64,000 nucleotides of DNA from Blastococcus aggregatus (lineage in GTDB: Bacteria > Actinomycetota > Actinomycetes > Mycobacteriales > Geodermatophilaceae): assembly GCF_900221005.1 (NCBI RefSeq), contig NZ_OBQI01000002.1:558001-622000 (forward strand), given 5' to 3'. How positions within the stretch are numbered: position 1 is the first letter of the stretch; each line of letters opens with the position of its first letter. Both the position numbers and the translations under genes were made by a program. Shown in pieces: positions 23,365-54,876 of this stretch. A model generated the notes under the pieces. The model did not search any database and was not told where the DNA came from. It was given only the letters and a program-made list of their open reading frames with translations.

Positions 23365-23877
23365 GTGACCGAACGCGACGAGAGCCCCACCGGGGCGACC
23401 ACCAGCTACGGGACGACGACGCCGGCCTACTCGGCCGAGCCCGTGGCGTTCCGCGGCCCGGAGAGCCTGGGCGGGCTGCTGCTGATCCTGGCCGGCATCG
23501 CTGCCGCGCTCAGCCTGGTGCTCGACTGGCTGGCCGACGTCGACGGCACCGGCCTGGACCTCGTGCGCGACGGCTTCGAGGACCTCGACGCGATCGTCGA
23601 CAACGGGCTGTGGCAGCCGATGGCGGTCGTCCTCGGCGGCGGCGTGCTGCTCGTGCTCGGGATCCTGATGTGGCTGCCGGCGCGCTCGCACCGCTTCCTC
23701 GGCCTGCTCGGGCTGATCGTGAGCGGCGTGATCGTCTGGGCGCTGATCGTGCCGCTCGACGACGCGAACTGGGAGCTCGACACCTTCGGCCCGGGCTTCT
23801 GGTGCGCGATCGCCGTCGCCGTCCTCGGCGTGCTCGGCAGCCTCAAGGCCCTGCTCACCGGTCGGCGCTACCGGTGA
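23365..23877 (+). CDS. Small four-helix membrane protein, unknown
   Basis: A 170-residue protein not recognised as a named family. A polar 30-residue N-terminus is followed by membrane segments at about 35-52, 82-102, 108-128 and 140-160. Between the first two is an acidic stretch ([13 protein letters not shown]). The GTG at 23365 has GGAGG 7 bases upstream; TAGGCT at 23315-23320 could be the -10, giving a leader of about 38 nt. It diverges from folD. Confidence 0.7.
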
Positions 23878-23880
23878 CAC

Positions 23881-24012
23881 CGTCGTCCTCCGGACGACAC
23901 CGCCATCACACTGCGGTCCTCCGGACCGCACCGCGTCCAGGTGCCGTCCCCCTGTCGCACTGAGCGGACCCGTCACGCCTGCGCGGACCCTCCGGGCCCA
24001 CTCGGCGTGACC
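23881..24012. repeat. Intergenic repeat, copy A (hairpin-rich, between convergent genes)
   Basis: Contains hairpin GTCGTCC-TCC-GGACGAC (23882-23898), then hairpin TGCGGTCC-TCC-GGACCGCA (23912-23930), then conserved segments CACGCCTGCGCGG and ACCCTCCGGGCCC. From about 23908 to 24010 it matches the sequence at 53685-53790 at roughly 85% by eye. No reading frame is likely. It lies between two convergent genes. Confidence 0.8.
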
Positions 24013-24028: not shown

Positions 24029-24661
24029 TCAATCAGCGACGAGGGCGCCGTGGGCGCGGGTGAACTGAACCGCCTGCACCAGGTCGACGCGGACGCCGGT
24101 GAGCTCGAAGGCGAGCCAGTTGACCTCGTCCATGGACGCCCCGCGCAGGTCGGTGCCGCGCAGCTTGGTGCCCTGCAGCCGCGCCCGGTCCAGGACCGCC
24201 CCGGTGAGGTCGCACTCGCGCAGGTCGGCGTCGGTGAAGTCGGTCTCCCGGAACCGCTGACCCGACAGGTCCAGGCCGGACAGGTCGGCGGCTCGCAGGT
24301 TGACGTAGCTCCAGTCGCACTCGGTCGAGGTCATCGGCCGCAGCTGCGCGCCCGGGAACTGCGAGCCGGTCAGCTTGCAGCCGTCCCACGTCACGTCGAT
24401 GAGCCGGGCCCGGTCGAACCGGCAGGACAGGAACGCCGTCCCCGAGTGCCGCGAGCCGCTCAGCCGGACGCCGGTGAGCACGCACTGGTCGAAGACGCAG
24501 CGCCGGGTCACGACCTCCTCGAGGAAGGCGTCGTCGAACCGGCAACGGGTGAAGGTGACGCCGTCGAGCTCCGCGCCCCACCAGTCGACGCGGGCGAAGT
24601 CCTCGCCCTCCACCTCCGCCCCCGCCTCCGGCGGACCGGCGTGCGGCCGCGAGGAGACCAT
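24029..24661 (-). CDS. Pentapeptide-repeat protein
   Basis: A 210-residue protein made largely of pentapeptide repeats with the A(D/N)LXX pattern: LDGVTFTRCRFDDAF, TAFLSCRFDRARLIDVTW, NLRAADLSGLDLSG, DFTDADLRECDLTGAVLDRARL, KLRGTDLRGASM. Such proteins form a right-handed four-sided helix; some protect DNA gyrase from inhibitors, most are uncharacterised. The ATG at 24661 shares one base with the purH stop (TGATG), so it is the last cistron of the purine unit. Confidence 0.88.
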   Translation of the reverse strand: MVSSRPHAGPPEAGAEVEGEDFARVDWWGAELDGVTFTRCRFDDAFLEEVVTRRCVFDQCVLTGVRLSGSRHSGTAFLSCRFDRARLIDVTWDGCKLTGSQFPGAQLRPMTSTECDWSYVNLRAADLSGLDLSGQRFRETDFTDADLRECDLTGAVLDRARLQGTKLRGTDLRGASMDEVNWLAFELTGVRVDLVQAVQFTRAHGALVAD

Positions 24662-26214
24662 CAGTGCGCGAAGTGGCGCGTACCGGTCAGGTAGAGCGGC
24701 ACACCGGCGGCGGCGGCCGCCGCGACGACCTCCTCGTCGCGCACCGACCCGCCGGGCTGGACGACGGCGCGCACGCCCGCGTCCAGCAGCACCTGCAGGC
24801 CGTCGGCGAACGGGAAGAACGCGTCCGAGGCCGCGACCGACCCGGCCGCCCGCTCCCCCGCGCGCGCCACGGCCAGCCGCGCCGAGTCCACCCGGTTGAC
24901 CTGGCCCATGCCCACGCCGACCGTCGCGCGGTCGTGCGCCAGCAGGATCGCGTTGCTCTTCACCGCGCGGACCGCCCGCCAGGCGAAGACCAGGTCGTCC
25001 AGGCCGGCGGCGTCCAGCGGCTCGCCGGTCGCGAGGGTCCAGGTGGTCGGGTCGTCGCCGGGGGCGTCGATGCGGTCGGTGGCCTGCAGCAGCAGCCCGC
25101 CGCTGACCGGCCGCAGCTCCACGGGCGCTCCCGGCAGGTGCGGCAGACGCAGCAGCCGGATGTTCTTCTTCCCGGTCAGCACGCGGACCGCGTCGTCGGT
25201 GAACGACGGCGCGACGACGACCTCGGTGAACACCTCGGCGACCTGCTCGGCCATCGTCAGGTCGATCTCGCGGTTGGCCGCGATGACCCCGCCGAACGCC
25301 GAGAGCGGGTCGCACGCGTGTGCCTTGCGGTGGGCGGCCGCGATGTCGGTGCCCACGGCGATCCCGCACGGGTTGGCGTGCTTGATGATCGCCACGCACG
25401 GCTCGGTGTGATCGTGCGCGGCCCGCCAGGCGGCGTCGGTGTCGACGTAGTTGTTGTAGGACATCGCCTTGCCGTGCAGCTGCTCGGCGTGCGCCAGCCC
25501 GGGCTGCACGCTGCCGCGGTAGAGGGCGGCGCCCTGGTGCGGGTTCTCGCCGTAGCGCAGCACGTCGGCGCGCTCCCAGCTCGCCGCCACCCACTCCGGG
25601 AAGTCGGACGTCTCGTCGGGCGCCAGGACGCTGCCCATCCACGAGGCCACGGCGATGTCGTAGGAGGCGGTGTGCCGGAAGGCGGCCACCGCCAGGCGGC
25701 GGCGCTGCTCGAGGGTGAAGCCGCCCCCGGAGACGGCGGCCAGCACGTCGGCGTACCGCGCCGGATCGACGACGACGGCGACCGACGGGTGGTTCTTGGC
25801 CGCGGCCCGCACCATTGCCGGGCCACCGATGTCGATCTGCTCGACGCACTCGTCCGGCGAGGCGCCCGAGGCGACCGTCTCGGTGAACGGGTACAGGTTG
25901 ACCACGACCAGGTCGAAGGCGGCGATACCGAGCTCGTCGAGCTGGGCGACGTGCTCGGGCCGGCGGCGGTCGGCCAGGATGCCGGCGTGCACGGCGGGGT
26001 GCAGGGTCTTCACCCGCCCGTCCAGGCACTCGGGGAAGCCGGTCACCTCCTCGACCGGGGTGACCGGGATGCCGGCGTCGGCGATGCGGCGGGCGGTGGC
26101 ACCGGTGCTGACCAGCTCCACCCCGGCACCGGCCAGCCCGCGGGCCAGCTCCTCGATGCCGGTCTTGTCGTAGACGCCGAGCAGGGCGCGACGGATCGGG
26201 CTGCGGTCGCTCAT
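24661..26214 (-). CDS. purH: Bifunctional AICAR transformylase/IMP cyclohydrolase
   Basis: Last two steps of IMP synthesis. The 517-residue protein has the N-terminal cyclohydrolase domain ([60 protein letters not shown]) and the C-terminal transformylase domain ([57 protein letters not shown]). All expected motifs are present. The ATG at 26214 overlaps the purN stop. Confidence 0.97.
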
Positions 26215-53648: not shown

Positions 53649-53662
53649 CCCCCACCCGGCAT

Positions 53663-53791
53663 GATCACGCCGAGTGGGGCCGTGACACTGCGATCCTCCG
53701 GATCGCACCGCGACCACGTGCCGTACCCCTGCTGAGCTGAGCGCGTCCATCACGCCTGCGCGGGACCCTCCGGGCCCCACTCGGCGCGATC
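53663..53791. repeat. Intergenic repeat, copy B, with terminal inverted repeats
   Basis: The ends GATCACGCCGAGTGGGGCC (53663-53681) and GGCCCCACTCGGCGCGATC (53773-53791) are inverted copies, 18 of 19 bases. Inside is hairpin TGCGATCC-TCC-GGATCGCA (53689-53707), then segments CACGCCTGCGCGG and ACCCTCCGGGCCC shared with copy A at 23881-24012. It lies between convergent genes. Confidence 0.85.
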
Positions 53792-53797
53792 ACGCTC

Positions 53798-54529
53798 TCA
53801 GGACATGACCCCCCGGCGGAAGCCGATGGCGACGGCCTCGGCGCGGTCCTTGGCGCCGAGCTTGCGGAACAACCGGCGGGCGTGGGTCTTGATCGTGTCC
53901 TCGGACAGGTAGAGCTCGCGGCCGATCTGGGCGTTGCTCTTGCCCTGGCTCATGCCGGTGAGCACCTGCATCTCGCGCATCGACAGCGCGGCGGGGGGCG
54001 CGGCGTCCCGGACGGTCGAGCGCACCGTGGTCGGGGCGGAGCCCGCCAGTGGGGCGGCGCCGCTCCACGCCGACGCGCTGACCAGCGAGCCGTTGCCGTT
54101 GTGCTGCTGCGGGATGCGGGCGCCCTCGGGACGCAGACCGACGCGGGACAGGCCCAGGCCCATCTCGATGGGGCTGGCGTCCCAGCGCAGGTAGCCGCGT
54201 GCACCGAAGGCGACGGCCGCGCGGACGCTCTCGGCGTCGTCCGGCGCTCCGAGCACCAGCACCGGCAGGCCGGGGTGGGCGCGCAGCGCCTGGGTGGCGG
54301 CGGTCAGCCCGGTGTCGACGGCGCGCTGCGTGCCGACGATGAGGACGTCGGGGGTGCGGGTGTCCAGCCGCGACATCAGCGAGGCGGGGTCACCCACCAC
54401 CTCGACCCGGCCGACGAAGGACAGTGCGACCAGCCGCGAGGCGACGTCGTCCCGGACCCGGCGGCGCTCGTCGTACACCCACACGGTCGCACCGGGGTTG
54501 CCGGTGGCGCGCATCCTGTCGTCGATCAA
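53798..54529 (-). CDS. bldM: BldM-like orphan LuxR-type regulator with a pseudo-receiver domain
   Basis: A 243-residue regulator. The C-terminus is very close to Streptomyces BldM (SMREMQVLTGMSQGKSNAQI, GRELYLSEDTIKTHARRLF, KKLGA-like RKLGAKDRAEAVAIGFRRG). The N-terminal receiver keeps the fold, but the phospho-Asp position reads DVLIVGTQRAVD, the Thr position VLGAPD and the Lys position YLRWDAS, so it cannot be phosphorylated as usual. A loop of about 55 residues links the domains. The TTG at 54529 has AGGAG 6 bases upstream; ATG at 54514 is the alternative. Divergent from whiD, as in Streptomyces. Confidence 0.85.
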   Translation of the reverse strand: MIDDRMRATGNPGATVWVYDERRRVRDDVASRLVALSFVGRVEVVGDPASLMSRLDTRTPDVLIVGTQRAVDTGLTAATQALRAHPGLPVLVLGAPDDAESVRAAVAFGARGYLRWDASPIEMGLGLSRVGLRPEGARIPQQHNGNGSLVSASAWSGAAPLAGSAPTTVRSTVRDAAPPAALSMREMQVLTGMSQGKSNAQIGRELYLSEDTIKTHARRLFRKLGAKDRAEAVAIGFRRGVMS

Positions 54530-54876
54530 GGCCTGCTCCTCGCTCCGCCCGGCGGTCGGTGCCGGGTCCGTACCGGCCGGGGCTGACCCCGGCCGGGTTC
54601 CGCTCGGGCGGGGGCTCCCCGTCCGGGGAACCCCGCGCCTCCGCGCTGCGCGCACCGGATCCGGGCTGGTCCCCCTCCCGTTTCCGGTACGACGCTGTTC
54701 CACCTTGAGCGCCTTCCGAGGCGGGCAACAGCACCCCTCACCCCCGGGGGTGAGGGCCACGGACGGGTGGTTCGCGCGAAAAGTTGCGATCACGACGTGT
54801 TTGACCATCCAGGGCCTCGGGCACCGGCCCCTTGCAGCCGGACAGTCCTCCGGCTCGATCGACGCCTGGAGGAGAC
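54530..54876. promoter_or_regulatory. Divergent bldM-whiD promoter region with a 22-bp palindrome
   Basis: About 350 bases with no supported gene. CCCTCACCCCC/GGGGGTGAGGG forms a perfect palindrome at 54735-54756, 122 bases before whiD and about 206 before bldM. GGAGGAG stands before the whiD ATG. In Streptomyces these genes are developmentally controlled, and BldM itself binds palindromic sites; autoregulation through this site is only a guess. Confidence 0.5.

Follow-up and report, generated by a model that had tools for sequence, protein, structure and literature searches.

The window, a 64,000-nucleotide stretch of Blastococcus aggregatus DNA (positions 558001-622000 of contig 8 in a source genome of 4.62 Mb and 13 contigs), contains two intergenic gaps, at 23881-24012 (copy A) and 53649-53797 (copy B), for which a first-pass annotation had proposed a shared sequence of about 105 bases at roughly 85% identity. 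Both gaps are real and both are convergent, and copy B matches bases 2-104 of a 105-base copy A query at 85% identity (E=1.9e-25); this match, together with dozens more blastn matches, led to the rejection of chance resemblance between the two gaps. Copy A adjoins the TGA stop (23875..23877, plus strand) of a short upstream gene encoding a protein with no Pfam match at E<=0.01, which was missed by the simple codon-usage script, trained on the window, that was used for gene calling; from the other side, a pentapeptide-repeat gene (24029..24664, minus strand) converges on it. Copy B is located between a DUF5319 gene (PF17252; 53271..53648, plus strand) and a convergent LuxR-type regulator gene (53798..54541, minus strand).

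Both full elements lie on the plus strand, at 23906..24011 in copy A and 53683..53790 in copy B, as delimited by matches to R1, a covariance model of hairpin 1 and the conserved core (83.2 bits at 23906-23977 and 87.2 bits at 53683-53754, respectively), and by a second hairpin read from the sequence. The main hairpins are as first described, namely TGCGGTCC-TCC-GGACCGCA (23912-23930) in copy A and TGCGATCC-TCC-GGATCGCA (53689-53707) in copy B, with hairpin 1 proper being GCGGTCC-TCC-GGACCGC at 23913..23929 and GCGATCC-TCC-GGATCGC at 53690..53706. The arms had been said to change together between the copies, and the difference is indeed a single base pair, G-C in copy A and A-T in copy B. Hairpin 1 is followed by the conserved core, at 23930..23951 (ACCGCGTCCAGGTGCCGTCCCC) in copy A and 53707..53729 in copy B, and then by hairpin 2, at 23972..24011 (GTCACGCC ... 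CCTCCGG tip ... GGCGTGAC) and 53749..53790 (ATCACGCC ... GGCGCGAT). The additional TCC-loop hairpin noticed in copy A (GTCGTCC-TCC-GGACGAC) is present at 23882..23898 on the plus strand, directly after the TGA stop, and consists of a second hairpin 1 followed by the start of a truncated core (R1 match over model positions 8-29; locus L273). In front of copy B lies an inverted partial copy of the 3′ end of the element (53663..53681, minus strand; minus-strand blastn match at 53665-53682), which pairs with 53772-53792 and thereby creates a long outer stem.

Distribution and anatomy of the repeat

Queried by blastn with the 105 bases from copy A, the source genome returned 45 matches at E<=10, copy A included, of which 27 have E<1e-3. 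The search with a covariance model that had been suggested for this genome and other Geodermatophilaceae returned many further copies in both: R1 has at least 38 matches at E<=0.01 in the source genome, partial or tandem modules among them, and one relative has at least 83 R1 matches, these copy numbers being lower bounds because the genome scans score the best candidates only (82 per genome). Within Geodermatophilaceae, 101 of 112 genomes match R1 at E<=1e-4, covering 9 of 12 genera, and in an order-wide set of 298 genomes only two of the 52 matching at E<=0.001 are outside the family, both being fragmented drafts with one R1 match each. A pattern scan of named genomes returned at least 117 stretches, and the 80 listed, which were used for the named-loci analysis, come from Blastococcus, Geodermatophilus, Modestobacter, Klenkia or "Geodermatophilaceae bacterium"; variation in hairpin 1 is underestimated in this set because the fetching pattern fixes part of that hairpin (TCC...GGA and one C). 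Plasmids, phages and IMG/VR viral contigs gave no match to copy B by blastn or to one exact pattern, and a plasmid, phage or viral home was rejected at this sensitivity. The repeat thus gives Geodermatophilaceae a family-wide element. Two near-complete family genomes, G003 (one match, E=1.8e-4) and G108 (none at E<=1e-4), are almost or wholly devoid of it and other species of their genera have it, which makes the two useful as negatives when seeking a partner gene. Genomes g6, g9 and g11 are likewise poor in the element.

For analysis of individual copies, a filter on core and pairing (at least five of seven standard pairs) yielded 278 candidates in 292 loci, of which the 202 with a TCC loop were kept and 76 dropped; flanking sequence was sufficient to assign context in 175 of the 202. 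The positions do not constitute a random sample, since some of the 292 loci were fetched for a gene (DUF5319, copy A, UvrD-like), and the loci of the dnaA gap, fetched later, stand outside the 202, 175 and 167 counts used below.

The element is ~110 bp long and reads, 5′ to 3′, ACAYY, hairpin 1 (7 bp, TCC loop), the core ACCGCGGCCAGGAGCCGTCCCC, a variable spacer containing GAGC and the larger hairpin 2. The 7-bp stem of hairpin 1 can be extended to 8 or 9 bp in 63 of 167 copies. Hairpin 2 usually has the tip CCTCCGG, with an outer stem that is typically GTCGCGCC/GGCGCGAC or a relative; by eye, its arms are quite different in three loci (L021, L022 and L023) with pairing retained, and an unrelated hairpin occupies its position in L019 and L020. 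RNAalifold applied to 22 copies returned 16 pairs, 10 of them with two-sided change. The two ends of the element have a weak similarity (CTGTCG...CGACAG), and conservation at the right end fades after CGAC. Tandem arrays occur, several with a spacing of 81-85 bp. Direct arrays of two to four units are found in L093, L094 and L096 (also in L095, L098 and L141); in the first three of these, the last unit alone has the right half of hairpin 2, and most units in L095 have their own right half.

Placement relative to genes and stop codons

Only 8 of the 175 copies with assigned context lie inside a predicted gene, five of them in the one UvrD-like gene, which had been fetched for that reason. Among the 167 intergenic copies, 140 follow a gene on the same strand, with 93 located in convergent and 47 in co-directional gaps, and 27 are without a preceding predicted sense gene; in the source genome alone, the gene-calling script placed a sense gene upstream of 24 of 30 copies. 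Orientation is biased, co-directional gaps having 47 sense versus 17 antisense copies. The distance from the stop codon to hairpin 1 peaks at 4 nt (38 copies), 7 nt (17 copies) and 11 nt (12 copies); at 4 nt, the A of TGA is the first base of ACAYY, and copies at 7 nt mostly read TGAGC and then ACATC. Of the 130 sense copies usable for this test, 85 have hairpin 1 beginning 2-12 nt past the stop, compared to 41.9 expected under uniform placement in the same gaps (maximum of 57 in 20,000 simulations). Likewise, in convergent gaps the left end of the element is 2-12 nt from its own stop in 57 of 93 cases, as against 11 of 93 for the right end.

A stop codon is not strictly needed, however, since in L046 (locus matched by letters) the element stands behind a tRNA-Leu, about 11-12 nt from hairpin 1. 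TGA is somewhat over-represented among the stops that precede copies (128 of 140, versus 860 of 1020 in the background) and TAG is scarce (6 of 140 versus 134 of 1020), and both TAA and TAG are also found in this position, suggesting that a preference for the letters TGA at insertion is possible without being exclusive.

Gain, loss and movement

The UvrD-like helicase gene (Pfam UvrD-helicase, UvrD_C) carries antisense in-frame copies in its linker, two in genome G012 and one each in G005, G008 and G011 (L097 1192-1359; L250-L252), which add roughly 35 or 70 residues (PEWAPEGSAQGRRSGS...) to the linker in four species. In 11 other genomes of the genus, the gene has a short, variable linker and no element, and outgroup homologs have no match to the inserted part. 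Because the gene carries the element in four species and lacks it in eleven relatives, the element has moved.

The gaps of copies A and B have changed as well. Among 22 genomes of the genus, the copy B gap has the element on the DUF5319 side in 11 (two of which carry it on both sides), on the LuxR side only and in opposite orientation in five, and absent or as a remnant in six. In all 16 genomes with the element it reads away from the nearest gene end, and several retain another terminator-like hairpin beside it (L107, L112 and L114). In the copy A gap, 3 of 18 genomes match R1, with one extra hairpin 1 in front (the source genome, G008) or two (G005), a comparison based on L273, L284 and L285. 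At the 3′ end of a gene that we take to be DnaA-like, inspection by eye of 27 family genomes revealed full copies, remnants and empty versions. The losses and flips in these three gaps argue against a strict need for the element at any one gene.

This mobility looks old, since no two copies at separate places are more than 95.1% identical (the top-ranking pair, at 95.2%, being two units of one array), and recent mobility was not seen. In a sparse sample, 13 of 29 copies of the source genome have a partner at an orthologous position, which suggests that copies are retained for long or that hot spots exist; shared positions could also result from selection for a cellular role, without selfish spread. 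No exact empty site and no target-site duplication were found, the gaps in G011 and G009 being too diverged and the empty UvrD-like genes having a variable linker. The Y1 (REP/RAYT) transposase domain PF01797 was detected in none of 36 family genomes, in 3 of 60 genomes overall and in 5 of 14 control genomes, and REP/RAYT mobilization by a Y1 transposase of the family genomes was therefore rejected. A search for half-elements flanking a transposase gave orphan hairpin 2 sites in 5 of 95 cases, one of them chance-like, and the ORFs beside L016, L019 and L020 are presumably not transposase-like.

Covariation of the hairpin arms

The compensatory change reported for the two copies extends to the whole family of repeats. 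In 96 distinct copies from the named loci, hairpin 1 is paired in 98.2% of cells, with 98 two-sided cells compared to 31.7 in shuffles and none one-sided; five of its seven pairs change on both sides, and sliding the partner destroys the signal. The 1414 pairs of the 202-copy set comprise 1397 Watson-Crick pairs, 2 G-U pairs and 15 other combinations. Further copies of the element therefore exist and their arms mostly change together, but 14 of the 202 stems are imperfect; the 188 perfect stems fall into 21 versions, three of which account for 155 copies. For comparison, G-U accounts for 9 of 93 pairs in control stems drawn from these loci, comprising nine acceptor stems and six T stems of tRNAs. 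The outer stem of hairpin 2 is far less strict (87 copies, 696 pairs): A-C combinations (40) exceed G-U (13), whereas a sense RNA kept paired would favor the opposite ratio, and there are 52 other mismatches.

Hairpin 1 contains all or part of the host gene's stop codon in 12 copies, and the opposite arm complements the stop letters in all 12, one of which has a mismatch elsewhere. All 12 have stems outside the three common versions, compared to 23 of 155 other copies with such rare stems.

A further view of stem change is provided by 79 pairs of copies at orthologous positions, in 19 of which, against about 4 expected, the element bodies are more alike than in 95% of unrelated pairs. Identity of stems was scored on left arms only, after which the arms were compared by eye. 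Ten of the 19 close pairs differ in the left arm, nine of these on both arms and several by two or three whole pairs, and one-sided change was seen in three (one of the ten, and two of the other nine, whose left arms agree and whose right arms differ); six of the 19 are from the UvrD-like gene and some of the rest have members in common, such that they are not independent events. Body identity in the other 60 pairs is hardly above that of unrelated copies (mean of 78.1% for all 79, versus 75.2%), so insertion may have occurred repeatedly at one place.

The paired change had at first been taken to point to selection on structure, in RNA or single-stranded DNA. The covariation itself stands; structural selection does not follow from it directly, given the 2 G-U among 1414 pairs, the excess of A-C over G-U in hairpin 2, and the stems that differ on both arms at shared positions. 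These three observations indicate arms that are rewritten or matched as DNA, more than an RNA fold that tolerates wobble pairs, and DNA-level pairing, gene conversion or template-switch correction explains the data at least as well as does selection on an RNA fold. Folding of the two copies as lone RNAs is divided on this point. The minimum-energy fold of copy A, which lacks the main hairpin and forms the extra hairpin only, agrees with the DNA-level view, and its stability is not clearly unusual (z -1.96, with 9 of 200 shuffles equally stable), whereas the unusually stable fold of copy B (z -5.05) does not agree with it.

Comparison with known repeats

The initial statement that no known family could be recognized holds for Rfam at the curated gathering threshold, where the window gave no match and 20 copy loci gave only two tRNAs, and a curated Rfam RNA was accordingly rejected; it does not hold for the general kind, since REP-like palindromes at gene 3′ ends are already known. 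No earlier report of the Geodermatophilaceae repeat was found in the openly licensed literature. In PMC3733652, REP and BIME sequences are described as palindromic, dispersed in dozens of copies and located downstream of genes, in convergent and co-directional gaps, with some intragenic and sometimes clustered copies, a description matched by the present element, an extragenic palindrome dispersed in dozens of copies, mainly downstream of genes, clustered and occasionally intragenic. As stated in PMC12306157, a fraction of REPs lie at most 15 nt from a stop codon, and, according to earlier work cited there, E. coli REPs this close to the stop are reported to stall ribosomes.

The element thus resembles REPs in place and shape, and it differs from the GTAG, CGTC and RAYT-linked REPs and BIMEs in being ~110 bp long, with two hairpins and a conserved core, rather than 20-40 bp, hairpin 1 alone being near that size. 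Neither hairpin is flanked by GTAG, be it in the consensus, copy A or copy B, and the end of the element showed no unpaired GTAG or CGTC tag. CGTC-type REPs, as characterized in PMC3733652, have an unpaired CGTC tag, an 8-9 bp stem, a 4-5 nt loop and a CCA tail, whereas hairpin 1 has a 7-bp stem and a 3-nt TCC loop, and the CGTC letters of its commonest stem are paired inside the stem. Further differences are the direct tandem arrays, the absence of a Y1 transposase from 36 family genomes and the host family, the word "actinobacteria" not occurring in the main text of PMC3733652. Because the element departs from both REP super-families in tag, size and association with RAYT, it was filed under neither.

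Other repeats share single habits with the element. Integron attC sites are hairpins kept in structure and poor in conserved sequence that stand directly after stops in a fixed orientation, all of which applies here; in contrast to attC, with its GTTRRRY/RYYYAAC core sites, copies A and B contain no such letters by eye, the element has two separate hairpins, and no cassette array was seen. MIRUs of Mycobacterium tuberculosis are, by description, comparable as actinobacterial intergenic repeats at stop codons that form tandem arrays, but they lie in translationally coupled operons and the present element lies mostly in convergent gaps; a literature search found no paper on MIRU DTGA sites. Rickettsia palindromic elements (RPEs) insert in frame into protein genes, as do the copies in the UvrD-like gene, but only 8 of 175 copies are intragenic here, and the likeness is one of description. 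The RPE of R. conorii is described as CGTC-tagged in PMC3733652. A MITE of a DDE insertion sequence is marked by terminal inverted repeats and a target-site duplication; here, the ends have the weak CTGTCG...CGACAG similarity, and no such duplication was found.

Origin and possible role

We consider it rather probable that we are dealing with a REP-like element, a dispersed palindromic repeat of two hairpins, whose spread took place early in Geodermatophilaceae and whose copies now stand chiefly where genes end, and also behind a tRNA, pointing away from the stop. Copies would have been spread by an enzyme since lost or not recognized, and the arms of hairpin 1 may have been kept complementary as DNA, whether by an enzyme that reads structure, by gene conversion among copies or by correction templated on the hairpin. 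Copies behind stops would have survived because a sense hairpin is harmless or useful there. The element would be transcribed as the first part of a 3′ UTR, in which hairpin 1, often 4, 7 or 11 nt past the stop, would stand where E. coli REPs reportedly slow ribosomes, and hairpin 2 might act as a 3′-end, protective or terminator stem, though no T run follows it. We infer on this basis a possible role in termination, mRNA protection or translation.

Alternatively, hairpin 1 and the unpaired core might be selected as a post-stop RNA, either a structured cis-regulatory element or a small RNA derived from the 3′ UTR. Such a function would account for the sense orientation and stop proximity, the strong covariation, the occurrence of the core in four named genera, the positions common to several species and the unusually stable RNA fold of copy B. 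Nevertheless, it appears rather unlikely in light of the scarcity of G-U (2 of 1414, versus 9 of 93 in tRNA pairs), the predominance of A-C over G-U in hairpin 2, the antisense copies within a coding gene that still differ by whole stems, the occurrence of the same gap with the element in either orientation or without it, the minimum-energy fold of copy A and the lack of an Rfam match.

If pairing is instead maintained as DNA, a Geodermatophilaceae enzyme might recognize the folded, single-stranded hairpin 1 rather than its sequence, placing or converting the element beside stops in a fixed orientation and swapping whole stems in place. We regard this as unlikely; if true, it would add a further bacterial route for moving hairpin DNA, besides Y1 transposases and integron integrases. 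Quite improbable, in our assessment, is covariation without any selection, in which template switching during replication re-matches the arms of a short-loop palindrome, mutation alone makes them change as units, and the repeat is nothing but old selfish DNA. The near absence of G-U, the 9 of 19 close position-sharing pairs that differ on both arms, and the matching of one arm to a stop codon in the other are all to be expected from template switching, but the concentration of 155 of 188 perfect-stem copies in three stems implies that stems are not drawn freely, the loop and core are conserved, the position bias needs a separate cause, and the outer stem of hairpin 2 is much less perfect.

Very unlikely is an ordinary, possibly bidirectional, transcription terminator family with resemblance arising from shared terminator design. 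In its favor are the location of most copies at gene 3′ ends, with 93 of the 167 intergenic ones in convergent gaps, the length and GC-richness of the hairpin 2 stem, and the unrelated hairpin that stands in for hairpin 2 in L019 and L020. Against it, neither a T run nor a terminator-like site is present at copies A and B, the element is still accompanied by other terminator-like hairpins in L107, L112 and L114, the conserved core between the hairpins and the position of hairpin 1 at the stop are non-terminator features, and the element has inserted within a gene. T-run terminators at copies A and B were rejected for want of any such site, a result that leaves room for terminators without a T run.

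The REP-like repeat separates two questions that are usually merged, namely whether arms covary through selection on RNA or through joint rewriting of DNA, and the copies with a stop inside hairpin 1, together with the stem differences at one position, make the choice between them testable. A further lesson would be that arms covarying in a dispersed repeat do not, on that evidence alone, establish a functional RNA.

Other sequences in the same gaps

Another palindromic repeat, ~55 bp long and of approximate sequence AAGGACCCCGTCCCTCTCACCACTCGCACGCTCGCGGTGAGCCTCCGGACGGGGCC, often lies directly after stops and has some inverted or diverged copies. It occurs in the dnaA gap in L294, L299, L303, L306, L308, L310, L314 and L316, and in the copy A gap of relatives in L274 and L279. 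In G011, ~1.1 kb of other sequence (L324, about 606-1709) lies where copy C8:752037 of the source genome sits. In several dnaA gaps, the ~55 bp repeat replaces the left arm of hairpin 1, as if it had been inserted into the loop.
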